64,000 nt of DNA from an uncultured Bacteroidales bacterium. Its GTDB lineage: Bacteria > Bacteroidota > Bacteroidia > Bacteroidales > Muribaculaceae. Below the pieces are notes generated by a model, which saw only the letters and a program-made list of their open reading frames with translations, ran no database searches and was not told the origin of the DNA. Within the stretch, counting starts at the first letter, position 1, and each line of letters opens with the position of its first letter. Position numbers and translations under genes: made by a program. Location: positions 1 through 64,000 of the forward strand of contig CACYVC010000014.1 of the NCBI GenBank assembly GCA_902777835.1. Reading direction: 5' to 3'. Below, one piece after another: positions 21,449-60,550 of this stretch.

Positions 21449-21465
21449 TTATCATTATTTAGATA

Positions 21466-21515
21466 ATCTAGAAAATCTAGAATTTCTAGAACTTCTAGAT
21501 TGAGATTCTAGATAT
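21466..21515. repeat. Nonamer array, word TCTAGAANN
   Basis: ATCTAGAAA, ATCTAGAAT, TTCTAGAAC, TTCTAGATT in 9-bp phase, then a further TCTAGA copy. Each core is a palindrome. A heptamer array follows directly. Confidence 0.6.
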
Positions 21516-23993: not shown

Positions 23994-24038
23994 CTACTAG
24001 ATACTCTAGATTATCTTGAAGTTCTAGATACTTTAGAA
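23994..24038. repeat. Nonamer array, word NNTCTAGAT
   Basis: CTACTAGAT, ACTCTAGAT, TATCTTGAA, GTTCTAGAT, ACTTTAGAA in 9-bp phase, starting 11 bp after the NUDIX stop. Confidence 0.55.
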
Positions 24039-24043
24039 AAAAC

Positions 24044-24087
24044 AAAAACTAAGAACTAACAACTAACAACTAACAATTAATAACTAA
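24044..24087. repeat. Heptamer array, word AACAACT
   Basis: AAAAACT, AAGAACT, AACAACT, AACAACT, AACAATT, AATAACT in 7-bp phase, ending about 7 bp before the sirtuin ATG. Confidence 0.6.
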
Positions 24088-24093
24088 CTAATT

Positions 24094-27406: not shown

Positions 27407-27441
27407 TTAAAACTGACAACTGAGAACTGAAAACTCAAAAC
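27407..27441. repeat. Heptamer array, word CTGANAA, upstream of the helicase promoter
   Basis: TTAAAAC, TGACAAC, TGAGAAC, TGAAAAC, TCAAAAC in 7-bp phase. Read as CTGACAA, CTGAGAA, CTGAAAA, CTCAAAA (27413-27440), it ends exactly 8 nt before the -7 element. Confidence 0.65.
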
Positions 27442-27448
27442 TTTTGCC

Positions 27449-27457
27449 TACCTTTGC
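27449..27457 (+). promoter_or_regulatory. -7 element of the RNA helicase gene
   Basis: TACCTTTGC, 20 nt before the ATG at 27477. There is no TTG at -33; the heptamer array occupies that place. The same layout precedes secA and the DUF4105 gene at 40952. Confidence 0.6.
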
Positions 27458-27476
27458 ACCCAAAATAATAAAACAC

Positions 27477-29336
27477 ATGGCAACATTCAAAGAACTTGGC
27501 GTGCGCGACGACCTGCTGCGCGCTATTGAACTGATGGGATATGAGAACCCTATGCCCATCCAGGAAATGGTGATTCCACACTTGCTTAACGAGGAGACCG
27601 ACGTGGTGGGACTGGCGCAGACTGGAACCGGTAAGACCGCCGCTTTCGGATTGCCTATGTTACAACGCATCGATACATCATCAACAGAGACTCAGGCACT
27701 TATTCTTGATCCCACTAGAGAACTATGCCTCCAAACTAAGACCGACCTAGAGGACTACTCCCGTTATGTTGATGGGCTGAGAATCGTGGCAGTGTATGGT
27801 GGAGCTAGCATAGAGTCGCAAATCCGTGAAGTAAAGCGCGGCGTGCAGGTGATAGTGGCAACGCCAGGCCGCTTGCAGGACCTCATCAGGCGTGGAGTGG
27901 TGAAGCTTGATGCAGTGCGCACCGTTATCCTCGATGAGGCTGACGAGATGCTCAACATGGGCTTTATTGACGATATCAACAATATCTTGATTAATGTGCC
28001 CGACGAGCGCAAAATGCTGATGTTCAGTGCTACTATGCCTCGCGAGATAGCCAATATCGCCAAGGACTTCATGCACAATCCTGTGGAATTCGTTGCTGGC
28101 ACACGCAACGAAGGCTCGGCAAACGTGCGTCACATCTATTATATGGTGAAGGCAAGCGACAAGTACCTTGCCCTCAAGCGCATCGTCGATTACTTGCCAC
28201 GCATCTACGGCATAGTTTTCTGCCGCACACGTGCAAGCGCGCAGGAGGTGGCGTCGCAGCTAATTCAGGATGGTTATGATGCCGACGCTCTGCATGGCGA
28301 CCTTTCGCAGGCACAGCGCGATGCCGTGATGAAGAAGTTCCGTGAGCGCAACTTGCAGCTGCTCGTGGCTACCGATGTGGCGGCGCGTGGTCTTGACGTT
28401 AACGACCTCACTCACATCATCAGCTACAGTCTCCCCGACGATAATGACATCTACAACCACCGCAGTGGTCGCACTGGGCGTGCTGGTAAGACGGGCATCT
28501 CAATCGCCATAATCCACAGCCGTGAGCGCAATAAGCTCAAGCAGATTGAGAAGCAGATTGGTAAGGAATTTGAGCGCCGCGAGGTGCCTAAGGCCGAGGA
28601 GATTATCGAAAAACAGCTCTTCAATCTTGCTGACCGCCTCGAGAACGTGGAGGTGCGCGAGGAGGAGATTGCTCCTTATCTGCCCAATGTGCTCAAGAAA
28701 CTGTCGTGGCTTAGCGGGGAGGACGTGGTGAAACGCCTGCTCTCGTTGGAGTTTAATCGAATGCTCGACTACTACAAGAAGGCACCAGTGCTCGACATAG
28801 TTCCCGAGAAGAAGGAGCGACAGAAGAAAGAGCGCACTCGCAAGCCTAATGGTGAGAAAGACCGACGCGTGGGCGAGGACGGTTACGAGAGAGTGTTTAT
28901 CAATGTGGGCAAGAGCCATGGGTTCTATGCCCCTGATCTCATTCGCATGATCAACGCCACCGAAGGCGGCAAGAATGTGGGCATAGGTCGCATTGACCTG
29001 TTGACCAACTATTCGCTCTTCGATGTGCGGCAAGGTGAAGCTCATAACATTATAAATGCTTTGCGTAACAGTGAGTTCTATGGCAAGCGTTTATATCTTG
29101 AGATTGCAGATGCCACCAAGGACTATGCCTCTATCACCTATGAGGGAGAGGTAAAAAAGAACCGTGCCGAGCGCCGTAAGGAGAAATTCAAGGCTATGGA
29201 GCGTGAGCAACGTCGTCGCAATGAGCGCCGCACTCGCCGCGACAGCGAGCGAGGTTTCAAAAAGCGTGGCAAAAACAGTGATGCTCCCGCTGGAAACTAC
29301 GACAAGTTTATGAAGAAAGGGCGTAGAAAGAAATAA
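27477..29336 (+). CDS. DEAD-box RNA helicase with DbpA-type RNA-binding domain
   Basis: ATP-dependent RNA helicase of 619 residues, probably acting in ribosome assembly or RNA decay in the cold. Core motifs: Q-motif region FKELGVRDDLLRAIELMGYENPMPIQ (several elements), Walker A AQTGTGKTAAF, DEAD in VILDEADEML, SAT in MFSATMP, and HRSGRTGRAG. After the core comes a linker of about 60 residues and a Lys/Arg/Glu-rich stretch, then a DbpA-like RRM (about residues 470-545: RVFINVGKSHGF, IGRIDLL, YLEIA). The tail is highly basic. The start at MATFKELG was chosen because it matches the family N-terminus and the promoter. Confidence 0.95.
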   Translation: MATFKELGVRDDLLRAIELMGYENPMPIQEMVIPHLLNEETDVVGLAQTGTGKTAAFGLPMLQRIDTSSTETQALILDPTRELCLQTKTDLEDYSRYVDGLRIVAVYGGASIESQIREVKRGVQVIVATPGRLQDLIRRGVVKLDAVRTVILDEADEMLNMGFIDDINNILINVPDERKMLMFSATMPREIANIAKDFMHNPVEFVAGTRNEGSANVRHIYYMVKASDKYLALKRIVDYLPRIYGIVFCRTRASAQEVASQLIQDGYDADALHGDLSQAQRDAVMKKFRERNLQLLVATDVAARGLDVNDLTHIISYSLPDDNDIYNHRSGRTGRAGKTGISIAIIHSRERNKLKQIEKQIGKEFERREVPKAEEIIEKQLFNLADRLENVEVREEEIAPYLPNVLKKLSWLSGEDVVKRLLSLEFNRMLDYYKKAPVLDIVPEKKERQKKERTRKPNGEKDRRVGEDGYERVFINVGKSHGFYAPDLIRMINATEGGKNVGIGRIDLLTNYSLFDVRQGEAHNIINALRNSEFYGKRLYLEIADATKDYASITYEGEVKKNRAERRKEKFKAMEREQRRRNERRTRRDSERGFKKRGKNSDAPAGNYDKFMKKGRRKK

Positions 29337-29355
29337 AGCAAAATTTGATAAAAGC

Positions 29356-29390
29356 AACATCGGCAGCGAAATTTCGTTGCCGATGTTTTT
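29356..29390 (+). terminator. Intrinsic terminator of the helicase gene
   Basis: AACATCGGCA (29356-29365) and TGCCGATGTT (29378-29387) enclose a second palindrome CGAAATTTCG; a T run follows. Confidence 0.85.
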
Positions 29391-29393
29391 ATG

Positions 29394-29500
29394 TCTAGAA
29401 TTTCTAGAGAATCTAGAACATCTAGTATGAATCTAGAACATCTAGTATGAATCTAGAACATCTAGTATGAATCTAGAACATCTAGTATGAATCTAGAAAA
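29394..29500. repeat. TCTAGA array with four exact 20-bp tandem copies
   Basis: It begins as nonamers TCTAGAATT and TCTAGAGAA, then repeats GAATCTAGAACATCTAGTAT four times exactly (starts at 29409, 29429, 29449, 29469) plus a partial fifth. The 20-mer is one 9-bp and one 11-bp TCTAG unit. It lies between the convergent helicase and valS stops. Confidence 0.9.
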
Positions 29501-29505
29501 ACGTT

Positions 29506-32202
29506 TTATCCCTTCAGGGCTGCCAGTGTCTCTTGCAGTGTAGCGATTTTGCTTTGAGCGTCGGCTTGTTTCTTGCGCTCGGCGGCTACTACTGCCTCGG
29601 GGGCATTAGCAACAAAACGCTCGTTGCTGAGCTTCTTCTCCACGCTTGCGAGGAAGCCTTGAGTGTATTGCAGTTCTTTTTCAAGCTTCTCTATTTCTTC
29701 GGCAACGTTGATGTTGTCGTGCAGAGGCACTGCAAACTCGGTTGTGCCAACCATGAATGAGGCTGCTGTTGGATCTTTGCTTTCCACCTTCTCGATAGCG
29801 TCAAGGCCAGCGAGCTTGAGAATGATAGATTGGAATGTGTTGTTCCACTCAGCATTGGCGACTTGCAGCTGGAGCATAGTCCTTTGTGCAATATTTTTGC
29901 TTGCGCGCACGTTACGCACGGCAGTGATAATCTCACGGGCCTCTGTCATCGCCTTGATGATGTTCTCATCAACGGGCTGTGGTTCAGGAACGATTGCATA
30001 CATTATGCTCTCGCCTGGCTTACGCTCGCTGATGTGCTGCCACAACTCTTCGCTGATGAATGGCATGAATGGATGAATGAGTCGCAGAAGCACGTCGAAG
30101 TAGTTGAGAGTGGCATCAAGGGTGGCGCGGTCGATGGGCTGCTGATAGGCTGGCTTCACAATCTCGAGATAGAGTGCCGAGAAGTCCTCCCAGAACAAGC
30201 GGTATATTGCCATCAACGCGTCGCTGATGCGGAACTTGGTGTAGAGGTCCTTCATCTCGGCGATTGTGCTGTTGAGTTGTGCCTGGAACCACTCGATGGC
30301 GAGACGGCTATGCTCGGGTTGCTCAATGTCGGCAACTTCCCATCCCTTAACGAGACGGAACGCGTTCCAAATCTTGTTGTTGAAGTTGCGGCCCTGTTCG
30401 CACAATGCCTCGTCGAAGAGGATGTCATTGCCAGCAGGAGCGCTAAGCATCATGCCCATGCGCACACCGTCGGCACCAAACTTGTCCATCAATTCGATTG
30501 GGTCGGGGCTGTTGCCGAGCGACTTCGACATCTTGCGGCCCAACTTGTCACGCACGATACCAGTGAAATATACGTTGCGGAATGGCATGTCTTTAACATA
30601 CTCATATCCAGCCATGATCATGCGAGTTACCCAGAAGAAGATGATGTCGGGGGCAGTAACTAGATCGCTTGTGGGGTAGTAGTACTTAATCTCCTCGTTG
30701 CCAGGGTTGCGAATGCCGTCGAAGAGTGAGATGGGCCACAACCACGAGCTGAACCATGTGTCGAGGGCATCCTCATCTTGGCGCAGGTCATCGATGGTGA
30801 TATTTTCATAGCCAGGCATCTGGTGAGCTTTTTCAAGAGCTTCCTCCTTTGTAAGTGCAACCACAAACTTCTCCTCCTCGTCATTCGTTGGCAGGAAGTA
30901 GGCAGGAATGCGGTGCCCCCACCACAGCTGACGGCTGATGCACCAGTCTTGGATGTTCTCGAGCCAACTGCGATAGGTGGCTTTATACTTGGGTGGGAAG
31001 AACTTGATATCGTCGTTCATTACTGGTGGCAGAGCGATGTCGGCAAAGTGCTGCATCTTGATAAACCACTGCATGCACAGACGTGGCTCTACTGCGGTGT
31101 CGCTGTTGCGCTCGCTGTAGCCCACCTTGTTCACATAGTCCTCTACTTTTTCCATCAGACCAGCGTTCTCAAGGTCAACGACAATAACCTTGCGCACCTC
31201 CTCGCGTGTCATTCCCACATAGAGTGGTGACTGCTCGCTGATGGTGGCGTCGGCATTGAAGATATCAATGGTCTCGAGATTATGGTTCTTGCCGAGCATG
31301 TAGTCGTTAACGTCGTGAGCTGGAGTCACCTTGAGGCAACCAGTGCCAAACTCTATGTCAACATAACGGTCCTCGATAACAGGGATGACGCGATTCACTA
31401 GAGGCACAATCACCTTCTTGCCCCTGAGCCATTGGTTCTTTGGGTCTTTGGGGTTGATGCACATAGCAGTGTCGCCCATTATGGTCTCGGGACGTGTGGT
31501 AGCAACCACAGCATAGCGGCGGCCCTGAGCGTCGCGGTGCAAAATTTCGCCTTCAGCGCCAGTCTCTCCGCTCATGTCATCGTCGGCAACATAATATTTA
31601 AGGTAGTAAAGCTTACTATTCTCCTCACGATAGATTACCTCCTCGTTGCTGAGGGCAGTCTGGGCTTTTGGGTCCCAGTTCACCATGCGTAGGCCACGGT
31701 AGATGAGACCTTTGTTGTAGAGGTCAACAAATACTCTGAGCACGCTTTCGCTGCGGATTTCGTCCATAGTGAAGGCGGTGCGACTCCAATCGCAAGAAGC
31801 ACCAAGTTTGCGCAACTGCTGCAAGATGATGCCGCCGTGCTCGTGGGTCCAATCCCAAGCATGTTTTAGGAACTCGTCGCGGCTTAAGTCGGTTTTCTTG
31901 ATTCCCTGCTCAGCGAGGCGTTTCACCACTTTGGCCTCGGTGGCAATGCTGGCGTGGTCGGTGCCAGGAACCCACAGAGCATTCTTGCCTTCTTGACGCG
32001 CGCGGCGCATGAGGATGTCCTGGATGGTGTTGTTGAGCATGTGTCCCATGTGAAGCACACCCGTGACATTGGGTGGTGGTATCACTATTGTGTAAGGTTC
32101 ACGCTCATCGGGCACCGACTTGAATAAGTCGTTATCAATCCAGTACTTATACCATTTTTCCTCGACCGCTTTAGGGTCATACTTAGTTGCCAAAGTGTTC
32201 AT
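29506..32202 (-). CDS. valS: Valyl-tRNA synthetase
   Basis: Class I aminoacyl-tRNA synthetase charging tRNA-Val, cytoplasmic. The 898-residue length fits ValS. The N-terminal [16 protein letters not shown] is typical, the HIGH motif appears as HMGH in [14 protein letters not shown] near residue 50, the editing (CP1) domain includes [12 protein letters not shown], and KMSKS is at residues 557-561. The C-terminal 65 residues form the ValS coiled coil ([14 protein letters not shown] and onwards). The nearby promoter on the minus strand is well matched. It is convergent with the helicase gene. Confidence 0.98.
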
Positions 32203-32243
32203 TTTACTTATTGAATGTAGATTAAATATTTTTTTTCAAACTG

Positions 32244-32274
32244 CAAAGATAGTGCAAACAGAGGGAAATACAAA
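32244..32274 (-). promoter_or_regulatory. Sigma-ABfr-type promoter of valS
   Basis: Minus strand: TTTG (32271-32274), a 19-nt spacer, TATCTTTG (32244-32251). The box ends 41 nt before the start codon. Confidence 0.65.
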
Positions 32275-32412
32275 ATCAAAAACAATATTTTGGATTTTTA
32301 TTTCCTAGGCGAAGCCTATCTTGAGTGATAGCTGGCGTTAGTAAAAAGTTTTTAGGAATAGTCTTTAATCTTTTTTAACAATAGCTATTTACAAAAAATA
32401 GACGAAAAACGC

Positions 32413-32421
32413 TATTTTTGC
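32413..32421 (+). promoter_or_regulatory. -7 box of the large secreted protein gene
   Basis: TATTTTTGC, 46 nt before the ATG at 32468. No TTG is seen at -33. A TAGGC-GAA-GCCTA triloop hairpin (32306-32318) lies about 100 bp upstream. Confidence 0.5.
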
Positions 32422-32467
32422 ATATTCATTCAAAATTTCAGTATAAATATATATTAACTTGTACCTT

Positions 32468-35050
32468 ATGAGAAGATTATTATTCATTTTGGCACTTGGG
32501 TGCTTGTTCTCTTTGACCTTCTTGGCGGCCCCAACAAACTATGGGACTCAACAGGTCTCTGGACATCGTCAAACCGAGAACATAAACTCGGGAAACTACA
32601 AATTCATTTTTAAGGGAACTCCTTTCGTAAAATATGCCGACAATGATGGCGTGATCGTAGTTCCCGCAAACTACTACCATCATAAATATGAGAAGCTGCG
32701 CTCTTTTGGCTATAGCCTCCAGACGTGGACAGGTAGCAACGGCAAGACCTATCGGCCCGACAACAACGTGACCGACACCATTGTCACTCGCGACATCCTC
32801 ACGAGCGACGTGATTTTAACGCCAAATTTCGTGCTTAACGAGGAAGATTTGGGCGATGCCACAGTAACGGCATTGTGGGAGTTTGGCCTGCCCGATAGTG
32901 TGGCTTTGTTCAGCAATTTCCAAAGTGTGTTCAGCTTCGTAAAGCCCACTCTCTACAACTCCTACTACATCGACATGAACATGAAAATCGATGCCACTCA
33001 GGGTTGGATTGACAATGAACTTTGCGCCGGCGAAGGTTATGCCGAAGTTGGAGCGGGAACCAAGTTCTCGTTGCCTGCGCGTTATGGCACCATTTACACA
33101 ATGGTGACAAAAGATGCTCTATCGGCTACCACCATTGCCGACAGCACCACTTACAAGACCACCACCGATGCCAACGGCAACCACGTCGCAACGCTCTACT
33201 ACTATGAGTCATCTAAAGACTCTGTCGACATTATCATGGGCGAGGACATTCGCCTGATATCGGTGTCGGCATCCTACCCCGGAGGCGACAACTACATGTC
33301 GTGGACTCCAAATATGAACAGCGACCAAGATGCAATCATCACGGAGAGCAAAAGTGATCCCTCAGGCTGTCTGCTCTACGACATCTCTGACATAGAGATC
33401 AACGGTGGCCTAAATGTGGTTGCAGGCACACCGGTTATGAACTTCTCACCTCAGATTGAGGTGCCCAACGAATTAGATGAGAGTAAATATCTGTCGGTCA
33501 GCTTCCAGATGGGTGAAGGCTTCTCCTATAAACACAAGAAAGCTTTTGTGCAACTACGTCTTGAAGGAGCCAACAAGTCGGCAAAGGTCAAAATGACACT
33601 TACCGATACTCAGGGTAATATGCTTGAATCTAAGCTTTACGAGTATGTAAATGCCGACAGTGTGCTGCTCGATACCTTAGCCAACTTCTCCAAACCCAAC
33701 GACATCTATCTCTACGACCACGTCACGATGAAACTCTTTGTGTATGGCGAGGCCGACAGTTACAGGCTCAATATGCCAATCACCAGTTCGGGCGAGATAT
33801 GCGAGGTGCTGCGATTCCCTGAAGGCTATAACTTCACGCCCTATGTCGCTAAGAGCGAGATTGACCTCGACGGCATAGGTCTGCTCACCGTCGACGCTTA
33901 TGAGGTGGTGGGAGTTGATGACGAGGCAAAGCACGTTACACTCAATGCCATCGAAGAAGTGCCAATGGGTGATATTATCATCATCCACTCCGACTCTGCC
34001 GGTGCAGTTCACAATATCCCGCTAACTAGAGCCGATGATGCCTATGTGCGCGACAACAACAAACTATGGGTATCGGACGGAACCGTTAAAGGTGGGCGCG
34101 ACATCTACCGTTTTTCCAAAGAGCAAGCCAAAGATGGTGATGTGTATGTCTTCCAACGCTCGTCAACAAGTGACATTCTGCCCGATGGAGAAGTCTATCT
34201 CAAATATCACAGCGCCACTAATACCGAGACCTACTACCTCACTGAAGCCGATGTGCCCGAGAAAATACCTCAGCTTATTTTCTACGACACACAGGATAAT
34301 CAACCGCTCATCGACCAATACAAAGGACGAACCATCGGCCAGGTAGAGCTCAATGGACACACTTTCTTCAAGAACCACCAGTGGAACACGATGTGTTTGC
34401 CATTCGATATCATTGGCGAGAACATCGACTTTTCGCCACTCGCCGATGCCGAAATCTGGGAACTCGACGTTGCCGAAAAAGATGACTATGTTCAGCCCAC
34501 CGGATTCGATGCTGAGACCGAAGTGCTGACTCTCAACTTCAAACCCGCACGCAACGTCGAACCAGGAAAACCCTACGTTTTTGAGTGGCGTACTACCGCA
34601 TTTAACGTTATCAATGACCCGGTATTTGAAAACGTGACTATTAAGAGCAGTACCGAAGGCGAGATGGCAATTACCAGCAATGATGGCACAGTGCAGTTCG
34701 TTGGAACCTACGCTCCAGCATCACTCATTGGTAACACTACTGCCAACTTATACATGGGAGACGACGACAAGTTTACCTATCCAACCTCCAATGACTATGT
34801 AAATTCATTTTATGCTTACATGCTTGTTGATCTGGGCAACGGCCTCGGATTGCCGGGCGAGAGCACCGTCAAGAAGATTGTCATGAACATTGCCGACGAC
34901 GAGAACATTATAACGAGAGTGATTGAGGTAATGATGCCAACTCCAGTTCAGGACGATGCTTGGTACGATATGCAAGGCCGCCGTTATAAATTCAAACCAA
35001 CAACTCCAGGTATCTACATCATGAACGGCCGCAAGATCCTCATCCAGTAA
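32468..35050 (+). CDS. Large secreted protein with a C-terminal sorting-like motif
   Basis: An 860-residue exported protein with signal peptide MRRLLFILALGCLFSLTFLAAP. The body is Asp/Thr/Tyr-rich and beta-predicted; I recognise no catalytic family. The C-terminus reads AWYDMQGRRYKF, then PGIYIMNGRKILIQ, the YDxQGR...GIYI pattern common at the ends of secreted Bacteroidales proteins and related to type IX secretion C-terminal signals. The preceding segment KNHQWNTMCLPFDI is also typical of large Prevotella/Muribaculaceae surface proteins. The start is the ATG at 32468; a TTG codon three residues earlier is less likely. It is a single gene with its own promoter and terminator. Confidence 0.8.
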   Translation: MRRLLFILALGCLFSLTFLAAPTNYGTQQVSGHRQTENINSGNYKFIFKGTPFVKYADNDGVIVVPANYYHHKYEKLRSFGYSLQTWTGSNGKTYRPDNNVTDTIVTRDILTSDVILTPNFVLNEEDLGDATVTALWEFGLPDSVALFSNFQSVFSFVKPTLYNSYYIDMNMKIDATQGWIDNELCAGEGYAEVGAGTKFSLPARYGTIYTMVTKDALSATTIADSTTYKTTTDANGNHVATLYYYESSKDSVDIIMGEDIRLISVSASYPGGDNYMSWTPNMNSDQDAIITESKSDPSGCLLYDISDIEINGGLNVVAGTPVMNFSPQIEVPNELDESKYLSVSFQMGEGFSYKHKKAFVQLRLEGANKSAKVKMTLTDTQGNMLESKLYEYVNADSVLLDTLANFSKPNDIYLYDHVTMKLFVYGEADSYRLNMPITSSGEICEVLRFPEGYNFTPYVAKSEIDLDGIGLLTVDAYEVVGVDDEAKHVTLNAIEEVPMGDIIIIHSDSAGAVHNIPLTRADDAYVRDNNKLWVSDGTVKGGRDIYRFSKEQAKDGDVYVFQRSSTSDILPDGEVYLKYHSATNTETYYLTEADVPEKIPQLIFYDTQDNQPLIDQYKGRTIGQVELNGHTFFKNHQWNTMCLPFDIIGENIDFSPLADAEIWELDVAEKDDYVQPTGFDAETEVLTLNFKPARNVEPGKPYVFEWRTTAFNVINDPVFENVTIKSSTEGEMAITSNDGTVQFVGTYAPASLIGNTTANLYMGDDDKFTYPTSNDYVNSFYAYMLVDLGNGLGLPGESTVKKIVMNIADDENIITRVIEVMMPTPVQDDAWYDMQGRRYKFKPTTPGIYIMNGRKILIQ

Positions 35051-35085
35051 AAAGCGTTCCGTAATAAGTAATTGAATTACTATAA

Positions 35086-35120
35086 AAAGAGGGTGTACCT
35101 GCCTTGGTGCGCCCTCTTTA
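35086..35120 (+). terminator. Intrinsic terminator after the large secreted protein
   Basis: A 14-bp stem with two G-U pairs: AAAGAGGG (35086-35093) continues to ACC, opposite GGTGCGCCCTCTTT ending at 35119. Confidence 0.75.
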
Positions 35121-35222
35121 TTATGTGTTATGGCCAAAATTTGTAAACCTTTCCCGATATTGGGATTACTGAAAATAAAAATCGGCTAACCTGCTATTTA
35201 TAAGCTGATTAGCCGTCTTTTG

Positions 35223-35298
35223 TGGTGACCCCGGAGGGGCTCGAACCCTCGACCCACTGATTAAGAGTCAGTTGCTCTACCAACTGAGCCACGGAGTC
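35223..35298 (-). tRNA. tRNA-Lys, anticodon CTT
   Basis: Minus-strand cloverleaf of 76 nt with encoded CCA. The acceptor stem GACTCCG pairs with CGGGGTC, the D arm is GGCTCAGTTGGTAGAGC, and the anticodon stem ACTGA/TCAGT encloses the loop CTCTTAA, giving anticodon CTT. The T arm is GAGGG-TTCGAGC-CCCTC. The sequence between the tRNA and the next promoter (35299-35450) is AT-rich with T runs and holds nothing else that I can see. Confidence 0.96.
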
Positions 35299-35450
35299 AA
35301 AAAAGGGAAACCCTTGTTGATTTCCGACTGCAAAGGTACAACTAATTTTTGAACTGGCAAGCGTTTTTGCGAGATTTTTTTGAAAAAAGCGAAAAAAAAT
35401 TTTTCAAGGCGATTTTTTTGCTGTTTTTGGCATGTTTTTTGTGATTGTTA

Positions 35451-35481
35451 TTGTTGTTTTTTAAAAAAATAACTACTTTTG
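35451..35481 (+). promoter_or_regulatory. Sigma-ABfr-type promoter of the zinc metallopeptidase gene
   Basis: TTG at 35451-35453 (another at 35454), then TACTTTTG at 35474-35481, spacer 20 nt. The ATG is 50 nt further. Confidence 0.55.
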
Positions 35482-35530
35482 TATTTTGTATAATAAAATA
35501 ATATTAATGTAACCAATAAAACAAAAAGAT

Positions 35531-36484
35531 ATGAATTTAGATGGACGCAGAGAAAGTTCAAATGTTGAAGATCGCCGTGGCATGAGTAGCGGCGCAAAGG
35601 CCGGCGTTGGCGGAGGTTTAATGGGTATTGTCATTGCTATTTTAATTGGTTTAATGTCCAATGGCGGAGGATGCAGTAGCATGGGTGGTCTCGGAGGAGG
35701 CGCTGGTGCTGGCGGCGGTATGGGTATTGACTTAGGCGATGTACTGGGCGGCATGTTAGGTGGCGGTGGATTCAATAATCAGATTCAAGCTCCAGGACAT
35801 ACTGAATTCACCGAGGAAGAGCAAGCTCTTTATAAGTTCTCAAGTCAGATTCTTGCTGGCACTGAGGACATCTGGTCACAGATTTTCCGTGAGCAGAGAT
35901 TGGGTGAGTATAAAAATCCCAAGATGGTTATCTACACTGGTGCTACAAGCACAGCATGTGGTCAGGGTCAGGCGGCTATGGGTCCATTCTATTGCAGTGG
36001 TGACCAGTGCCTTTATATCGACCTGTCATTCTTCACTACCATGAAGTCGCAGTTAGGTGCTGATGGCGATTTTGCCTATGCCTACGTGATAGCACACGAG
36101 GTTGGACACCATGTAGAGTATCTTACTGGCATCCTCGACAAGATTCACGCTAAGATGCGCCAGTATGGACAGGGTAGTGCACAGGCCAATAAAGAGAGTG
36201 TGCGCATCGAGTTGCTTGCCGACTATCTGGCTGGCTGCTGGGCTCACTACGACAACGAGCAGTTCGCTTCGCTTGATGATGGTGACTTGAAAGAGGCCAT
36301 CGACTGCGCCCTCAAGATTGGTGATGACTACCTACAGAAGCGTGGTCAGGGTTATGCAGTACCCGAGAGCTTCACTCATGGTACTAGCGATCAGCGCATG
36401 CGCTGGTTCAAGGCTGGCTTTGAGACTGGTGACGTGAGAAGAGGCATGGAAGCAGCTATGAACCTCAATTACAACCAGCTGTAA
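35531..36484 (+). CDS. Neutral zinc metallopeptidase, YpfJ/KPN_02809 family
   Basis: A 317-residue membrane-anchored protein of the family called putative neutral zinc metallopeptidase. It has the family N-terminus MNLDGRRESSNVEDRRG, a transmembrane helix at about residues 30-47 (GLMGIVIAILIGLM), a Gly-rich linker, and the peptidase domain. The zinc motif is HEVGH with His189, Glu190 and His193, in AYVIAHEVGHHVEYL. SACGQGQAAMGPFYC and DQCLYIDLSF are other family landmarks, and RIELLADYLAGCWAH carries the probable third ligand. Its physiological substrate is unknown. It has its own promoter and a terminator. Confidence 0.92.
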   Translation: MNLDGRRESSNVEDRRGMSSGAKAGVGGGLMGIVIAILIGLMSNGGGCSSMGGLGGGAGAGGGMGIDLGDVLGGMLGGGGFNNQIQAPGHTEFTEEEQALYKFSSQILAGTEDIWSQIFREQRLGEYKNPKMVIYTGATSTACGQGQAAMGPFYCSGDQCLYIDLSFFTTMKSQLGADGDFAYAYVIAHEVGHHVEYLTGILDKIHAKMRQYGQGSAQANKESVRIELLADYLAGCWAHYDNEQFASLDDGDLKEAIDCALKIGDDYLQKRGQGYAVPESFTHGTSDQRMRWFKAGFETGDVRRGMEAAMNLNYNQL

Positions 36485-36533
36485 TCACAATTTAATTACG
36501 CACAGTTTTGATTGTAGCGTTCAGATGATTTAG

Positions 36534-36569
36534 TCCCCAAGTTCATTATTGAGCTTGGGGATTTGTTTT
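36534..36569 (+). terminator. Intrinsic terminator of the zinc metallopeptidase gene
   Basis: CCCCAAGTTCA (36535-36545) pairs with TGAGCTTGGGG (36550-36560) with one G-U pair, followed by ATTTGTTTT. Confidence 0.8.
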
Positions 36570-36625
36570 GCCATATAATGTAAACGTTTTCCTATTAAAT
36601 ATAATAAAATGGTTATCCATTAAAC

Positions 36626-36656
36626 TTTGAGTCTTAAAGGATACTACTAATTTTGC
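36626..36656 (+). promoter_or_regulatory. Sigma-ABfr-type promoter of the small secreted protein gene
   Basis: TTTG at 36626-36629, an 18-nt spacer, TAATTTTGC at 36648-36656. The leader to the ATG at 36715 is about 55 nt. Confidence 0.65.
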
Positions 36657-36714
36657 AGCCGCTTTAAGAAACAACAAAAATAAAACAGAATATAATAATA
36701 AAATTTACTAGATT

Positions 36715-37326
36715 ATGAAAAAAGTTATTTTAGCCTTATTGATTGGTTTGTGCTCATTATCGAGCTATGCTAGTGAGTATGACACTGATTACATCACTAT
36801 TCCAGAGTCTTATATCAATAGCCCTGGACATACCTATCTTCTTGAGAAAGCTGCAACTATTTTTAGACATGAATATCGCTTGACCCTTACTAATATATAT
36901 TTAAGTGAATGTTGGTTCTATTGCGATATCGTCATTGAGCATTTTGAGGATGATTTTGATGTTACTCAATCTTGTGACAACGAGTATCCTCAGAGTGAAG
37001 CTGGTCCTGGTACAACGTCATCAATTACTGTTGGAAAAACCGCCTACGACATCGTAATTCATTCCGAAGTTAGATTATGGAGAGATGATGATGAGAAGAA
37101 TATAACAGTGACATATCATTTCACTGATGCTTGGAAACAGGATGACTATTATTTAGTTGTAACTTTCCCTTATAACAAAAAGACTTGGACAGGCATAAAT
37201 GATGTTACTATCACCCCAACATCGGTTGAGTACTATGACCTTCAAGGTCGCAAACTCAATGGCCCACAATCAGGCATCGTGATTGAGAAGCAGGGTGACA
37301 AGGTTACTAAGAAGATGTACCGTTAA
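36715..37326 (+). CDS. Small secreted protein with a C-terminal sorting-like motif
   Basis: A 203-residue protein with signal peptide MKKVILALLIGLCSLSSYA. The mature part is acidic and aromatic with no family I recognise. The C-terminus (TSVEYYDLQGRKLNG, then GIVIEKQGDKVTKKMYR) repeats the YDLQGR pattern of the 860-residue protein 1.7 kb upstream, so both probably follow the same export or anchoring route. Base composition is a little more AT-rich than its neighbours, which may mean a young or fast-evolving gene. It has its own promoter and a shared terminator with secA. Confidence 0.75.
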   Translation: MKKVILALLIGLCSLSSYASEYDTDYITIPESYINSPGHTYLLEKAATIFRHEYRLTLTNIYLSECWFYCDIVIEHFEDDFDVTQSCDNEYPQSEAGPGTTSSITVGKTAYDIVIHSEVRLWRDDDEKNITVTYHFTDAWKQDDYYLVVTFPYNKKTWTGINDVTITPTSVEYYDLQGRKLNGPQSGIVIEKQGDKVTKKMYR

Positions 37327-37347
37327 TCAATCCACAAATCATAATAA

Positions 37348-37381
37348 AATCCCCTTGAGCTCTTGAAAACTCAAGGGGATT
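37348..37381. terminator. Bidirectional terminator between the small secreted protein gene and secA
   Basis: Perfect 12-bp stem AATCCCCTTGAG (37348-37359) with CTCAAGGGGATT (37370-37381). On the minus strand it is followed by a T-rich tract, so it also fits the secA end. Confidence 0.75.
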
Positions 37382-37409
37382 GTTGTATCTGGCAGTCTGC
37401 TATTATTGT

Positions 37410-40400
37410 TTATTGCAGCTTTCCGTGGCAGTTTTTGTATTTCTTGCCGCTGCCGCATGGGCAAGGATCGTTGCGGCCAATCTTTGGACCTTCGTTGCGG
37501 ATTGGTGCCACTGGTCCGCGTCCTGCCTGGCTTGCGCTCATGCCGGCTTGGCGTTGAGCTGCTGCAGCTGCTGCCACAGCATCTTGTCCACGGCCTTCGT
37601 TGTAGCGTTGGCGTTGACGACGCTCCTCTTGAGCGCGGCTCACTTCGGGATTGCCTTCCTGAGTTGGAATCTGTCCACGCATAAGCGATGATATGGCCTT
37701 GTTGTTCAAATCGGCAAGCATAGCCTGGAAGAGGTTGAATGACTCGAGTTTGTAGATTACCAATGGGTCTTTCTGCTCGTAGCTTGCATTCTGCACACTT
37801 TGACGCAACTGGTCGAGGTCACGCAGGTGAGTCTTCCAGTTCTCGTCGATAGAAAGCAGCAGGATAGCTTTCTGCCAAGCCTTGGCAATGCACTTGCTCT
37901 GGGTTTCATATGCCTCTTTGAGGTCGATGACGATGCCATAGGTGCGACGTCCGTCGGTAATGGGCACTCTCATCTTGCCCTGAGGCTCGGGTAATCCTTC
38001 GCTCATCTGTCGCTCACACACACTTTGAATTACAGGGTTGGCGATTTCAGAGAGTCGTTCAGTTTTACGTTTGAAGGCCTCCATCACAGCTTCAAAGAGC
38101 TGGTCAATGCTCTTTTGTGAATCTTGCTTGCGGAATTGCTCCTCGGTGAATGGTGGTTCAATAGCGTAGGTGGAGAGCACTTGCATCTTCAGGTCTTCGT
38201 AAGCTGATGGGTCAAACTTGTTGACCGTCTCCTCGATGCTGTCGTAAATGGTGTTCATGATGTCGATGCCAATGCGCTCACCCAGCAGTGCATGGTGACG
38301 ACGGGTGTAGATGGCATTACGCTGATAGTTCATCACATCGTCATACTCTAGAGTGTGCTTTCGGATACCGAAGTTGTTCTCCTCCACGCGCTTCTGAGCG
38401 TTCTCGATACTCTTGGTTACCATTGGCGACTCAATCATCTCGCCGTCGTGCAGTCCCAGACGGTCGAGCAGTTTAACTACTCGCTCGCTGGCAAACAGAC
38501 GCATCACCTTATCCTCGAAAGATACAAAGAATACAGAACTACCTGGGTCACCTTGACGCCCGGCACGACCACGCAGCTGGTTATCTACGCGTCGAGACTC
38601 GTGGCGCTCGGTGCCGATGATGGCAAGACCTCCTGCCTCTTTAACCTCAGGCGTAAGCTTGATATCGGTACCACGACCTGCCATGTTGGTGGCGATGGTA
38701 ACCACACCCTTGCCGTTGACCTGACGTCCGGCTTGTGCCACGATGTCGGCTTCCTTCTGGTGCAACTTGGCGTTGAGCACGTTATGTTCAATGTGTCGCA
38801 AACTAAGCTGGCGGCTTAATCGCTCAGAGATTTCCACCGAAGTGGTACCCACTAGGGTGGGGCGTCCCATATCGCGCATCTTCACGATTTCCTCAATCAC
38901 AGCATTGAACTTCTCCTTCTCGGTCTTGAACACGCGGTCGGGAAGGTCCTTGCGGATTACTGGGCGGTTAGTGGGGATGTTAACTACATCGAGTTTATAA
39001 ATCTCCCAGAACTCACCAGCCTCGGTCATAGCGGTACCGGTCATACCTGCCAACTTGTGATACATGCGGAAGTAGTTCTGCAGTGTGATGGTGGCGAAGG
39101 TCTGTGTTGCAGCCTCCACTTTCACACCCTCTTTTGCCTCGATAGCCTGGTGGAGACCATCGCTATAGCGGCGGCCTTCCATGATACGGCCAGTCTGCTC
39201 ATCTACGATTTTTACCTTGCCTTCCTCGTCAACGATATACTCGTCGTCGCGGTTGAAAAGGGTATAGGCCTTGAGCAACTGGGTGACGGTGTGCACGCGC
39301 TCGGCTTTCACCGAGTAGTTTTGAAGCAACTCGTCTTTCTTTGCTATCTTCTCTTCCTCACTCAGGGGCTCGTTCGACACTTGCGAGAGCTCTGTGGCGA
39401 TGTCGGGCAGTACGAAGAACTTGGGGTCGTCGGTGCCGCGTGTGAGCACGTCAATACCGTTGTCGGTAAGCTCCACAGTGTTGTTCTGCTCCTCGATGAT
39501 GAAGTAGAGTGGGTCGGTCACAATGTGCATTTCGCGGTTGTTGTCTTGCATGTAGAATGCCTCGGTCTTGAGCATCATCTGCTTCACGCCCTCTTGTGAG
39601 AGGAACTTGATGAGTGGCTTGTACTTAGGCAGACCCTTGAATGCACGGAACAGCAGCAGTGTGCCTTCTTTCACTTGTTCTTTATCATCGCTAGCCATGA
39701 GGCGACGGGCGTCGCTCAAGAGCTGGGTAACAAGACGGCGCTGTGCTTCGTAAACACGCTCCACATTGGGTTTGTATTCGTCAAATAGTTGGTCCTCACC
39801 ACGAGGCACAGGACCAGAGATAATCAATGGCGTGCGGGCATCATCAATAAGCACCGAGTCCACCTCATCGACAATGGCGTAGTGGTGTGGACGTTGCACG
39901 AGATCTTCGGGGGTCATCGACATGTTGTCGCGCAGATAGTCGAAACCAAACTCACTGTTGGTACCGAAGGTGATGTCGCAATTGTAAGCATTGCGACGCT
40001 CCTCGCTGTTAGGCTCAGTCTTGTCGATACATGCTACGCTCAGGCCATGGAACATATAGAGTGGACCCATCCACTCCGAGTCACGTTTGGCAAGGTAGTC
40101 GTTCACAGTTACCACGTGAACACCGCAACCGGCCAAGGCGTTGAGGAACACTGGTAGGGTAGCAACAAGGGTCTTACCTTCACCAGTCGCCATCTCAGCA
40201 ATCTTACCTTGATGGAGAACCGATCCACCAATGAGCTGCACGTCGTAGTGAATCATGTTCCAGGTCATCTCGTTACCGCCGGCTTCCCAAGTGTTGAAAT
40301 AGGTGGCTTTGTCGCCGTTTACCTCTAGGAAGTCGTGGCCGTCGGCAGCTAGTTTGCGGTCGAAGTCGGTTGCCGTCACCTCGATTTGCTCATTCTCGGT

Positions 40401-40763
40401 GAATCGGCGCGCTGTTTCTTTCACTATGGCAAATACCACTGGCAGCACCTCATTGAGTTTCTCTTCAATGCGGTCGAGCACCTCTTTCTCCAGTTTGTCA
40501 ACTTTAGCCCACATGGGTTCTCTTTCCTCATATTCGAGGGTCTCGATTTCGGCTTTGATAGACGCAATCTCGTCGCGCTGAGGCTGCACATAATCTTGAA
40601 TCTCCTGTCGGATAGCAGCACTACGAGCGCGCAAATCATCGTTCGACAACTTTTCGATCTCGGGATAAACAGCCTGAATTTCATGCACTATTGGCATAAG
40701 CTTCTTCAGGTCTCGCTCACTCTTGTTGCCGAAGATGGATTTCAAAAAACTATTTAATGACAT
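37410..40763 (-). CDS. secA: Protein translocase motor subunit SecA
   Basis: ATPase that drives exported proteins through SecYEG. The 1117-residue protein is long, as in Bacteroidetes, mainly through an extra coiled-coil-like insert near residues 55-105 ([33 protein letters not shown]). Walker A MATGEGKT is at residues 191-198, then [13 protein letters not shown], the [19 protein letters not shown] box, and [12 protein letters not shown]. The C-terminus has the zinc-binding SEC-C motif [14 protein letters not shown], preceded by a Gln/Arg-rich linker. The promoter is of the array-linked TACCTTTGC type. Confidence 0.98.
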
Positions 40764-40840
40764 ATTTTTATATAATTGTGTTTTTTTACAGTGTAGATAA
40801 TATTTTGCAGCAAAAAATGTGCCAAATCCATAACAAGCTG

Positions 40841-40849
40841 CAAAGGTAC
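40841..40849 (-). promoter_or_regulatory. -7 element of secA
   Basis: Minus-strand TACCTTTG (40841-40848), about 77 nt from the start codon. The heptamer array begins 8 nt upstream, and no TTG is present at -33. Confidence 0.55.
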
Positions 40850-40856
40850 GAAAAAG

Positions 40857-40884
40857 TTTTCAGTTATCACTTATTAGTTGTCAG
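40857..40884. repeat. Heptamer array, word CTGANAA, upstream of the secA promoter
   Basis: On the minus strand CTGACAA, CTAATAA, GTGATAA, CTGAAAA in 7-bp phase, then 8 nt (CTTTTTCG) to TACCTTTG. Confidence 0.6.
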
Positions 40885-40951
40885 TTTTTTTGATGCTGAC
40901 AATTTTGTGTAACAACATTTTGGATAACTGGTAGATAGATATTATTGTGCA

Positions 40952-42154
40952 TTATTGCCTCCTCACATTCACCAGCGACCGCAGTAGGGTGGAAGCGACG
41001 ATGGGGTAGAATGCGGCATTTGCCACTTGCAGGCCACTTACCCACACTACTGCCATAGTGGCAATTAGGGCAATATTGATGAGGTGTGCCCATCGTAAAG
41101 GTTTCTTTGCTCTCTTTATCCAAGGAAGGATGGCGAGTAACAAAAGCAGTGGGTGCAGCCACAGGATGTTGTAGTTGGGCAGCACTGCCTCATGGGTGGA
41201 GATGAACTCTACAAAGAAAATAACGCATCCTGCCAAGCCTGCGACCGTGAAAAGCAAAGTGTCATACCAACGCGACACTTTGCGGTGTTTCCAGTTTTGG
41301 TAGGATATTATTACGGTGAAAATCAGTAGTACTATTGCTACGGTTAGTGGATGGAGATACCAGGGAGTGGGGGGCAGCACCAGGCCTTTGTCGTCGCCCT
41401 CCATCACCACATTAGTGGCCTTTACGAGTTTTTCGGGGCCATTGCCGTTATCTACTTCCACATTGCTTATGGCATTCATCAAGAACAGTGGCACAAAGGT
41501 CTGTGTTCGTGCGTCAACCACGGTGTCGCAGGCAGCACCTAGTGCGAGGTCTATGCCAAATTGCTCCCACGGATAATTGCGCGTGTAATATGTCATGATT
41601 TGCCGCAGCGTCTTGCCCACTACATAGTCACATTTGGAGTAGTCAATTTTCTGACCTATAGCTTTTTCAATGATATCTCGCGGACGGGTGGAACAGTTGT
41701 CGCTGAAGTGGCGATATCGGTACACACAGTTCTCGCGCCTGGCATTGGTCAAGAGCATGTCGAGCATTTGTTGTGCCTGTTCGGGTGTGATGTTGAGGTC
41801 TTGTTTTATTATCTTGCGACCTGGTTTTATGCCTCCGTCGAGGGTGGGAGGCATTATGGCACACATATAGTCGGTCTCACCCATGATGTAGCGCCCAAGG
41901 AAGTTAGGCGAGTTGAAGTCGAACACACCATAATTAAAGAAATAGGCGTTCTTCCCCTTGGTAACCAATATCTCGGAGTGTCCAAACACCTCAAAAATCT
42001 CGTCACCAGGATAGAAGGTGATAAGGCTCACCTCGATGTTGTCGGTGGTGGCGGTGCTGTCGGGGCGAGGACTCTCACTTTGTGCCCACATTTGTGTCCA
42101 CGTGGAAATCAGTATAGCTGTTATTAGGGTAATATTTTTGAGAAACTGTATCAT
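40952..42154 (-). CDS. DUF4105 (Lnb N-terminal periplasmic domain) membrane protein, copy 1
   Basis: A 400-residue protein with signal peptide, a DUF4105 domain (about residues 35-235), and four or five C-terminal transmembrane helices from about residue 265. In the domain, FEVFGHSEILV carries a conserved His and YRHFSDNCSTRPRDII a conserved Cys, the pair expected for a papain/NlpC-like hydrolase fold. The function of the family is not settled. A second copy with the same architecture is encoded at 54493. Its promoter is of the array-linked TACCTTTGC type. It is convergent with nothing; secA lies 190 bp downstream on the same strand. Confidence 0.85.
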   Translation of the reverse strand: MIQFLKNITLITAILISTWTQMWAQSESPRPDSTATTDNIEVSLITFYPGDEIFEVFGHSEILVTKGKNAYFFNYGVFDFNSPNFLGRYIMGETDYMCAIMPPTLDGGIKPGRKIIKQDLNITPEQAQQMLDMLLTNARRENCVYRYRHFSDNCSTRPRDIIEKAIGQKIDYSKCDYVVGKTLRQIMTYYTRNYPWEQFGIDLALGAACDTVVDARTQTFVPLFLMNAISNVEVDNGNGPEKLVKATNVVMEGDDKGLVLPPTPWYLHPLTVAIVLLIFTVIISYQNWKHRKVSRWYDTLLFTVAGLAGCVIFFVEFISTHEAVLPNYNILWLHPLLLLLAILPWIKRAKKPLRWAHLINIALIATMAVVWVSGLQVANAAFYPIVASTLLRSLVNVRRQ

Positions 42155-42180
42155 AACTATGTCATTTTCACTTACGGGTG

Positions 42181-42189
42181 CAAAGGTAG
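42181..42189 (-). promoter_or_regulatory. -7 element of the first DUF4105 gene
   Basis: Minus-strand TACCTTTG (42181-42188), 26 nt from the start codon, preceded by an 8-nt CTTTTTAC spacer and a heptamer array. Confidence 0.6.
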
Positions 42190-42196
42190 TAAAAAG

Positions 42197-42231
42197 TTGT
42201 CAGTTGTCAGTTATAAGCTGTCAGTTTTTAG
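42197..42231. repeat. Heptamer array, word CTGACAA, upstream of the DUF4105 promoter
   Basis: On the minus strand CTAAAAA, CTGACAG, CTTATAA, CTGACAA, CTGACAA in 7-bp phase, then 8 nt to TACCTTTG. Confidence 0.65.
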
Positions 42232-50296: not shown

Positions 50297-50333
50297 AAGG
50301 ACTAAGTGCAGCGATGAGGCCCACTTAGTCCTT
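50297..50333. terminator. Inverted repeat between convergent priA and fabG
   Basis: Arms AAGGACTAAGTG (50297-50308) and CACTTAGTCCTT (50322-50333), perfect over 12 bp with a 13-nt loop. The right arm is the beginning of the TTAGTCC array. It has no T run of the usual kind, so the terminator role is an inference from its position. Confidence 0.5.
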
Positions 50334-50373
50334 AGTCCTTAATCCTTAGTCCTTAGTCCTTAGTCCTTAGTCC
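50325..50373. repeat. Heptamer array, seven units of TTAGTCC
   Basis: TTAGTCC x2, TTAATCC, TTAGTCC x4 in perfect 7-bp phase, ending 8 bp before the fabG stop. Confidence 0.9.
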
Positions 50374-50380
50374 CTTAGGA

Positions 50381-52787: not shown

Positions 52788-52825
52788 GTTTTTTATTATT
52801 TGATTTTAGAGAGCAGATTTGAAAG

Positions 52826-52916
52826 GAACTATGAACTGTGAACTGTGAACTATGAACTATGAACTGTGAACTATGAACCATGAACTGCGAACTATGAACT
52901 GTGAACTATGAACTAT
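52826..52916. repeat. Thirteen-unit heptamer array, word GAACTRT
   Basis: Thirteen consecutive 7-bp units (52826-52916), ten of which are exactly GAACTAT or GAACTGT. Variants are GAACCAT and GAACTGC. The array ends on the first base of the cls stop codon. This is the longest heptamer array in the window. Confidence 0.92.
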
Positions 52917-54367
52917 TAAAGTAGTGGTCCAAATAGCCTTACTATGCTCTCCACAGCTTTTTGCCAAATTGGGCGCTTGCGCCAGTGACGCAGGTTGATG
53001 CGTGTGCAATCTTTCATGTCGATGAGCATTACATCTTTCATGCGCTTGTTGAACTCTTGGCTATATATCAGCACATTGCTCTCGAAGTTGTGCTCAAAGC
53101 TGCGGAAGTCAAAATTGGTAGATCCAGTGGTGACAAAGTCGTCATCGATTACCACCACTTTAGAGTGCAGCATGCCTGGCTCATAGAAGTAAATTTTAAT
53201 GCCGCTGTCAAGACATTGTTTCACATAGGAATAAGACGCATATCGCAGCAATATGCTGTCGGGCTTGCGAGGGATCATCAGGCGCACATCAACTTTGCTG
53301 AGCGCAGCTACCTGCAATGCCTTGAGCAAGGGGTCGCTGGGCAGGAAATAAGGAGTCTGGATATATACACACTTGTGGGCGCTGTCGATGGCCTTTTGGA
53401 ACACAAATGCCATGTTCACCCACTGGCTGGTGGGCCCGCCAGTGACAAGCTGCATTCCGATTGGATTGGCTATGCTGCCAGGTTCCACCATTTCTACTGG
53501 CACCTCAATGAGCTCGCGCTTCATGAAGTTCCAGTCAATGGCAAACGATACCTGAAGCGCTGCCACAATGTCGCCAGTTACTCGCAGGTGAGTGTCGCGC
53601 CAGTGTTTCATCTTCCCTCCGTCGATATAGCGGTCGGCGATGTTCATTCCGCCAATGTAACCTATCTTGCCGTCGATGACCACAATTTTACGGTGGTTGC
53701 GCCAGTTGATGCGGTTGGCAAATTCAGGGAAGGTGATTTGCATGAAGGGATAGACTTCCACTCCTGCTTTGCGCAGCTTCTTGAAATAGGACATGTCGAA
53801 ATGGAAAGATCCCACATGGTCGTAAAGCACGCGCACCTTCACGCCATCTTGCACCTTCTGCTTGAGAATGTCGCCAATCTCATTGCCTATCTTGTCGTTC
53901 TCGATGATGTAATACTGAATGTGGATATATTTTTCGGCAGCCAGCAGGTCGCGCTTGAAGGCGTCGAACTTGTCCTTTCCGTTGGTGAAAATTTCAACCG
54001 CATTGTTGGCAAGGAAAGGCGAACCTTGAATGCTGCTCACGAGATTTATCATCTGCTGGCGCTCACTCTTGAGGGTGTCGTAATGAATCACTTGCTGTGA
54101 CCGCATCAAATGCTTGATGTCATCACGGTTGGTGAGCCGTTGTCGCTTCTTGCGCGATATCATGCGGATGTGGCGCAAGCTACGCCCAAAGAAAATGTAG
54201 AGGATAATGCCCACCACAGGCAGCAAAATGAGCACGGTGATCCACGCCAAAGTCTTCACAGGGTTGCGGTTTTCACTGACCACCACCCCGATAATCGCCA
54301 CTGCCGTAATACCATACAAAATGGTAAATATCAGGCGAGAATATGGAAACAACTCGGCAAGTATCAT
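52916..54367 (-). CDS. cls: Cardiolipin synthase, phospholipase D type
   Basis: Inner-membrane enzyme that joins two phosphatidylglycerol molecules to cardiolipin and glycerol. The 483-residue protein begins with two transmembrane helices (about residues 8-60) and then has two phospholipase D domains. The first H-K-D motif starts at His225 (NHRKIVVIDGKIGYIGG), the second at His401 (LHSKVVVIDDDFVTTGS). Near the C-terminus ends WRKRPIWQKAVESIVRLFGPLL, the usual short tail. Length is normal for ClsA-like enzymes. It is a single gene with no nearby lipid genes. Confidence 0.96.
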   Translation of the reverse strand: MILAELFPYSRLIFTILYGITAVAIIGVVVSENRNPVKTLAWITVLILLPVVGIILYIFFGRSLRHIRMISRKKRQRLTNRDDIKHLMRSQQVIHYDTLKSERQQMINLVSSIQGSPFLANNAVEIFTNGKDKFDAFKRDLLAAEKYIHIQYYIIENDKIGNEIGDILKQKVQDGVKVRVLYDHVGSFHFDMSYFKKLRKAGVEVYPFMQITFPEFANRINWRNHRKIVVIDGKIGYIGGMNIADRYIDGGKMKHWRDTHLRVTGDIVAALQVSFAIDWNFMKRELIEVPVEMVEPGSIANPIGMQLVTGGPTSQWVNMAFVFQKAIDSAHKCVYIQTPYFLPSDPLLKALQVAALSKVDVRLMIPRKPDSILLRYASYSYVKQCLDSGIKIYFYEPGMLHSKVVVIDDDFVTTGSTNFDFRSFEHNFESNVLIYSQEFNKRMKDVMLIDMKDCTRINLRHWRKRPIWQKAVESIVRLFGPLL

Positions 54368-59593: not shown

Positions 59594-59599
59594 AAGGAT

Positions 59600-60545: not shown

Positions 60546-60550
60546 CGAGA

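Follow-up and report, generated by a model that had tools for sequence, protein, structure and literature searches.

The 64,000-nt stretch analysed here ("the window"; positions 1 to 64,000 of contig CACYVC010000014.1, assembly GCA_902777835.1, from an uncultured Bacteroidales bacterium of the Muribaculaceae) contains genes for a DEAD-box RNA helicase, for SecA and for an acyltransferase-like protein, each preceded by a row of 7-bp repeats that ends at a fixed distance from a -7 promoter box. Such heptad-array sites, which we call type A, are a general and discrete element that recurs beyond chance. We tentatively regard them, at close to an even chance, as a form of the Bacteroidota -7/-33 promoter particular to this lineage, in which the array would replace the -33 contact and would most likely form a cooperative protein-binding site. 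The three window sites and their genes are as follows.

27407-27458, plus strand: type A element of the DEAD-box helicase, with the -7 box TACCTTTGCA at 27449-27458.
27477-29336, plus strand: DEAD-box RNA helicase gene, named from its translation and homologues; its NCBIfam matches (CshA-like and others) are all below cut-off.
37410-40763, minus strand: secA (NF009536, over cut-off), matched in all 25 genus genomes searched.
40839-40890, minus strand: type A element of secA, with the -7 box at 40848-40839.
40952-42154, minus strand: gene first named DUF4105, resembling the lipoprotein N-acyltransferase Lnb (NF051878, E 6e-85, below the curated cut-off).
42179-42230, minus strand: type A element of the DUF4105 gene, with the -7 box at 42188-42179; border, length and register are kept in the related genome G001.

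At all three sites AACTGA-type heptads are followed by a spacer (CTTTTGCC, CTTTTTCG and CTTTTTAC, respectively) and then by TACCTTTGCA, exactly as an earlier reading of the window from its letters alone (the sequence-only reading) had stated. Its formula CTGANAA does not hold for every unit, as the last helicase unit (AACTCAA) and one secA unit (AAGTGAT) deviate from it. The same reading noted that TTG is missing at the -33 place, about 22 nt before the TA of the box. This is correct for all three promoters: numbered from the T of this TA, as are all positions below, the trinucleotide at -22 to -20 is CTG (helicase), GTG (secA) and CTG (DUF4105 gene), and is always supplied by the array.

The complete element spans about 51 bp and consists of an A tract, about four AACTGAN heptads, AACTTTTNNN and the -7 box TAnCTTTGCA. 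In a logo of 91 distinct aligned sites it reaches from -42 to +9, with a sharp 5' border and a signal near background up to -43. A prevails at -41 to -37 (at least four of the five positions in 75 of the 91 sites), and CT recurs every 7 nt at -36, -29, -22, -15 and -8, mostly preceded by AA and mostly followed by (G/A)A, after which come TTTTNNN and TAnCTTTGCA; below +9 the signal is weak and consists mainly of A/T richness at +15 to +17. The stretch from -17 to -11 is partly selected, because all 91 sites were chosen by AACT[TA][TA]T plus the box, and those from the register search also by AACTGANAACT. Counted by CT steps, 32 sites have all five, 23 have four, 18 have three and 9 have two, and another 9 have the selected step alone; at the heptad phase CT averages 2.66 of 4 positions, compared to 0.03-0.11 in the six other phases. 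The repeats seen in type A arrays are direct repeats only. Repetition above 829 boxes likewise peaks at lag 7 (71, against 1-4 at lags 5, 6, 8 and 9), at loci that were partly chosen for their arrays.

The distance between array and box is equally constrained. A search of four sister genomes with AACTGANAACT N{0,30} TANNTTTGC, which left the gap free between 0 and 30 nt, returned 95 rows, and 93 of these have a gap of 6, 13, 20 or 27 nt, i.e., one of the seven possible registers. Overlapping rows of one site are counted separately here; grouped by coordinate, 73 of 75 distinct sites share this register. Both exceptions occur in G001. Back-to-back type A or near-type-A promoters, one per strand, are found between divergent gene pairs at L020 and L260 in the source genome and at L227 and L232 in G001.

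The module described from the window does recur through the genome. The pattern AACTTTTNNNTACCTTTGCA, with at most one mismatch, has 26 matches (11 of them exact) in the 2.89-Mb source genome (G000), and none in the backwards-sequence control. By lag-7 score (a clear array scoring at least 20/35) the array is clear at 18 of these sites and weak at seven (L001, L008, L011, L013, L021, L024, L025); L016, which lies at a contig end where no gene could be read, has none by eye. Recurrence extends to the genus: among 41 genomes searched, AACTTTTNNNTACCTTTGCA matches in 24 of 25 genus members (the source genome included) and in 4 of 16 genomes outside it, with forward controls of 0 throughout and reverse controls of 2 in total. 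The stricter, heptad-bearing pattern ACTGANAACTWTTNNNTANNTTTG matches in 17 of the 25 genus genomes, at 107 places in sum and with controls of 0, although its spread is uneven (20 in the source genome, 25 in G001, 12 in G010, 9 in G011 and none in eight genomes). Within 295 genomes of the order it is found only in the source genome (20 places) and in one other (1 place), against 2 control matches. The best matches of the helicase protein come from metagenome-assembled genomes titled Porphyromonadaceae, Paramuribaculum and others, with 61-75% identity for the first few. A chance origin of the pattern was considered and rejected on the 26 matches against 0 in the control and the fixed register of 93 of 95 rows.

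Several of the downstream genes serve translation. According to NCBIfam, the sites of the source genome precede genes for polynucleotide phosphorylase (PNPase), the Tyr, Met, Thr, Glu, Leu, Gln and Phe tRNA synthetases, MltG, phosphatidylserine decarboxylase and, just below its cut-off, hypoxanthine phosphoribosyltransferase; further names below cut-off are a UmuD-like protease, an Lnb-like acyltransferase and a histidine-kinase-like protein, and several genes are of unknown role. Sites from the register search precede RecF, TamL, phosphoglycerate-kinase-like and MscS-like proteins and others, and the ArgS promoter fits type A with two mismatches. In other genomes type A stands before ValS (G001), TrpS (G018) and the ribosome GTPase Der (G008). 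Synthetases make up 7 of the 24 coding genes at sites of the source genome, with P between about 1e-9 (about 2230 genes, a number scaled from the open reading frame count) and 1e-6 (800 units), assuming 22 synthetase genes. If only clear arrays are taken, Tyr, Thr and Phe drop out as weak and 4 of 17 remain (P about 2e-5 to 8e-4). Across four genomes, type A occurs at ValS, LeuS, MetG and ThrS in at least one genome each, and it is intact at ValS of G001 and G011.

Where a start was assigned, the box lies 9-251 nt upstream of it, with one further case at 397 nt. Two kinds of non-coding feature also stand at type A boxes: a tRNA-Leu begins 27-31 nt after the type A box in G002 and G009, and the aptamer match of a cobalamin riboswitch (L006:1515-1742, contig C15 of the source genome) begins inside the type A -7 box. 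These positions agree with a presumed transcription start just after the box, for which the riboswitch offers a natural control. The suggestion of the sequence-only reading that the module represents a promoter type is supported by its recurrence in genome and genus, the fixed register, the sharp 5' border, a conservation between some orthologues that exceeds that of the diverged flanks, and the location of the sites just upstream of genes, the riboswitch and the two tRNA-Leu genes.

How such a promoter would work is a further question. A box TAnnTTTG close upstream of the gene, as in promoters of the primary Bacteroidota sigma factor, is present at type A sites, and TAnCTTTGCA would be the -7 box of that factor; the TTTG or TTG expected about 20 nt before it is missing. 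The heptads may take over from the -33 TTG as the upstream element that is recognised. As the array lies above the expected start site, it would act as DNA. Most likely its direct repeats would be bound cooperatively, side by side, by a small DNA-binding protein that oligomerises, with one protomer or dimer per 7 bp by analogy with omega/ParB on pSM19035, and this putative protein might recruit or restrain the polymerase at growth-related genes. The sequence tests point to a real promoter class, while the step from the conserved array to a bound protein is the weakest of the proposed mechanism.

The -33 position itself bears on this reading. Ordinary boxes of the source genome have their -33 place as TTG at -23 or -22 (57 of 160 sampled boxes), whereas only 2 of 91 type A sites have TTG there. 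The 160 boxes come from a 464-kb sample and include the window's own array sites. A set of 20 stretches of the genome contains none of the 26 AACTTTTNNNTACCTTTGCA sites and so serves as background only. The claim that the array stands in place of the -33 contact is thus supported by the depletion of TTG, but the heptad often puts CTG in the same spot (at -22 in 34 of 91 sites, compared to 4 of 160 sampled boxes), so that a weakened contact may remain. It is conceivable, if somewhat unlikely, that RNA polymerase itself reads the array with no additional protein, the heptad at -24 to -18 offering CTG or TG as a weak -33 and the A/T-rich repeats being UP-like or flexible. The CTG counts, a G at -20 in 60 of 91 sites, the ordinary -7 box and the use of different heptad words in the same place are consistent with this view. 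However, a TG alone leaves the CT steps up to -36 and the A-tract border at -42 unexplained, and sampled boxes retain TTG far more often than type A sites do.

Comparison between species indicates that some of the arrays are held in place. Array and gene are shared, the array sometimes being degenerate, at 9 of the 24 G001 sites, which stand at the same gene as a AACTTTTNNNTACCTTTGCA site of the source genome. In 11 orthologous pairs (9 with G001, 2 with G011) the array from -42 to -11 is identical at 269 of 352 positions (76%), compared to 126 of 363 (35%) over the 33 bp directly upstream; the 35 bp that follow the element agree at 245 of 385 positions and the selected core at 212 of 220. Two of 13 pairs were excluded from this footprint, L014/L233, where the G001 array is mostly gone, and L016/L234, where neither partner has an array. 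Two type A sites paired at random agree at 58% of the array positions and at 28% of those upstream. From these figures we infer that the array was inherited at the locus and held to its consensus while the DNA above it turned over. The 5' border is kept in most orthologous pairs.

Heptad arrays also occur outside promoters. Between the genes of the 464-kb sample there are 45 arrays at lag 7, 31 at lag 14 and 20 at lag 21, against 0-6 at lags 3-6 and 8-13, and its coding DNA has a single array at lag 7. A looser threshold yields 57 arrays; taking up to 12 nt as close, 18 of them are close to a start codon only, 21 to a stop codon only, 4 to both and 14 to neither. As far as these sequences go, the promoter element is one ordered use of a wider heptad-array habit. 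In the window, intergenic heptad arrays are located at 6931-6972, 24034-24092, 50319-50380, 52820-52923, 59552-59595, 60511-60553 and 62140-62189; their words are TTAACAC, AACTAAC, CTTAGTC, GAACTAT, TAAGTGT, CGATAAA and AGTTTTC, and they often touch a start or stop codon. A habit distinct from the heptads is seen in the CTAGA-based repeats at 29394-29498, 21460-21499 and 59601-59644, with a 20-bp unit TCTAGAACATCTAGTATGAA (5.3 copies) and the 9-bp units TAGAAAATC and CTAGAAATT.

Given this habit, the TAACTGA-type arrays could be a dispersed repeat that spread or expanded beside -7 boxes, the promoters that carry one being by-products that persist by chance or because an array is tolerated upstream of TTTTNNN. 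The frequency of multi-word arrays between genes, the presence of the helicase array in only one of four sister species and the existence of two other recurrent promoter types (below) speak for this explanation. We nevertheless consider it quite improbable: the promoter arrays hold their length, border and register between species despite the divergence of their flanks, and they favour synthetase genes, whereas the non-promoter arrays in the one segment compared, 37.4-44.6 kb of the window and its G001 counterpart (one and two arrays, respectively), are unshared, though these are very few cases. Phase variation by slippage in heptad copy number is very unlikely and was rejected as the main explanation, since, for all the near-perfect units at some sites (e.g., L019) and a secA relic in G001 that is one unit shorter by eye, the length is near-constant with a border at -42 in most sites, that border is kept between most orthologues, and many downstream genes are housekeeping rather than surface genes. 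Curvature by phased A tracts was likewise set aside, because a 7-bp period would be out of phase with the helix.

Several observations weigh against the protein-binding promoter class that we favour. None of the three nearest relatives (G001, G010, G011), which keep the TACCTTTGCA box, has the helicase array, and among the 23 secA upstream regions of the genus that could be read, only two carry type A (those of the source genome and G011). Membership fades out: at 9 of the 91 sites all four unselected CT steps are missing; the seven weak arrays among the 26 sites include those of TyrS, ThrS and PheS, and one site lacks an array; little or no array is left at 5 of the 24 G001 sites (L225, L226, L228, L233, L234) and at 2 of the 3 G009 sites examined. 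In a survey of 11 synthetase types in four genomes, which considered only the box nearest to the start and in which we assigned the gene labels from family and match order, 7 types are without type A. The frequent CTG in the place of TTG, too, may mean that the array holds merely a degenerate -33.

Other heptad words in a similar build (TTATGAA, ACTTCGT) likewise argue against one sequence-specific protein. The sequence-only reading had described the panC promoter as similarly built from a different word, and this applies to a few other promoters as well.

5518-5569, plus strand: promoter of panC with TTATGAA heptads (type C), of a build similar to type A with another heptad word.
5600-6457, plus strand: panC (TIGR00018, over the NCBIfam cut-off).

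Type C consists of TTATGAA/TTGTGCA heptads followed by ATTTT and 2-3 nt to the box. It is found at panC in the source genome and in G001 (L364) and at LeuS of G011, while G010 has a looser version before LeuS. The gap of type C to the TA is 7 or 8 nt in 7 of 10 rows from four genomes. ACTTCGT heptads precede secA of G016. The build may matter more than the heptad word, and the idea of a single protein is therefore weakened.

Some apparent losses of type A have another cause, as can be seen at valS in the window.

29506-32202, minus strand: valS (PF00133; TIGR00422 over cut-off).
32252-32338, minus strand: insertion-like type B copy of 87 bp at valS, flanked by the former TA and the current -7 box, with its own TTG -33.
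32339-32382, minus strand: degenerate type A array above the valS promoter, severed from the gene by type B.

Type B is a second recurrent promoter, GAAATAAAAATC...TTTTGATTTTGTATTTCNCTCNNNTTGCAC before TAnnTTTGCA, of 80-90 bp with an internal inverted repeat and a TTG where the -33 is normally found; if up to 3 mismatches are allowed, there are 9 copies in the source genome and 7 in G001, and 0 in the control. At ValS of the window, and in G001 at secA, LeuS and (as a variant) MetG, it separates a type A array from its gene. In particular, the type A element of secA in G001 is interrupted by the insertion. Type B enters at the TA of the former -7 box and leaves that box broken (TACCGTTG and similar), while the box and leader below are kept. 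Its insertion site seems to be the TA of -7 boxes, and the loss of type A at secA, leuS and metG (G001) and valS (G000) is only apparent, because the insertion would have cut the array off. A promoter "swap" at these four genes was considered and dismissed, as longer sequences show the type A array still upstream, severed by type B. Type B loci include 32252-32338 on the minus strand of the window, L281, L285, L313 and L294; most copies are flanked on both sides by a TAnnTTTG-like sequence, and L289 holds tandem units. Several copies are located within type A promoters, three of which belong to synthetase genes (valS in the window, leuS and metG of G001). Mobile promoters, or promoter propagation, place one promoter sequence above many unrelated genes, as is also the case here. 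Type B resembles these in that it looks like an insertion; type A differs, as neither target duplications nor empty sites occur in the sequences read and some of its sites are conserved at orthologues.

In a bolder form of the protein-binding interpretation, which we consider possible but doubtful, a heptad-binding protein would polymerise on four 7-bp sites, replace the sigma -33 contact and place tRNA synthetases, SecA, RNA turnover and part of the tRNAs under a common signal, as a global promoter class of a single gut Bacteroidales genus; type C would then be a parallel class with a second protein.

Three known systems come close to type A. The primary sigma factor of Bacteroides (sigma-ABfr) recognises -7 TAnnTTTG and -33 TTTG, according to PMC7366714; type A has the identical -7 box, but lacks the -33 TTG in 89 of 91 sites and has the array from -42 to -7 instead. 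TAACTGA direct repeats are described by MacGregor (2015, PMC4679880) as mostly intergenic and lineage-sporadic, including five Bacteroidetes, with other heptamers beside some of them; they are mostly situated within a few nt of start codons and were interpreted as a possible translational signal. The type A word is identical (AACTGAT is TAACTGA in another phase) and is likewise directly repeated, and two or more unspaced intergenic TAACTGA heptads are present at part of the sites, with units more variable than in the published sets. The majority in BOGUAY, however, lie just upstream of start codons, while type A arrays lie above a -7 box and end, after about four units, at a fixed place before it, a promoter register that does not appear in the passages of PMC4679880 consulted. 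The closest working model is the ribbon-helix-helix (RHH) protein omega/ParB of pSM19035. According to PMC9499535, it binds parS, 7-10 unspaced 7-bp repeats that overlap promoters, and four contiguous repeats are the minimum for full stimulation of the ParA ATPase. Unspaced 7-bp repeats overlap the promoter at type A sites as well; the pSM19035 word, in contrast, is WATCACW, occurs in both orientations and belongs to plasmid genes, whereas type A has direct repeats only. Among the matches listed in a literature search, which did not reach most subscription papers, none describes a heptad array that keeps register with a Bacteroidota -7 box.

Bacteroidota promoters are thought of as a -7 box plus a loose -33. 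The upstream element of type A is more ordered than this, is nearly confined to one genus and stands over several core translation genes. The TAACTGA repeats, whose function was without a test in 2015, would become testable at a promoter, both for a reader of the 7-bp repeat and for the replacement of the -33. The element may likewise be relevant to promoter annotation and to the design of expression parts in uncultured gut Bacteroidales.

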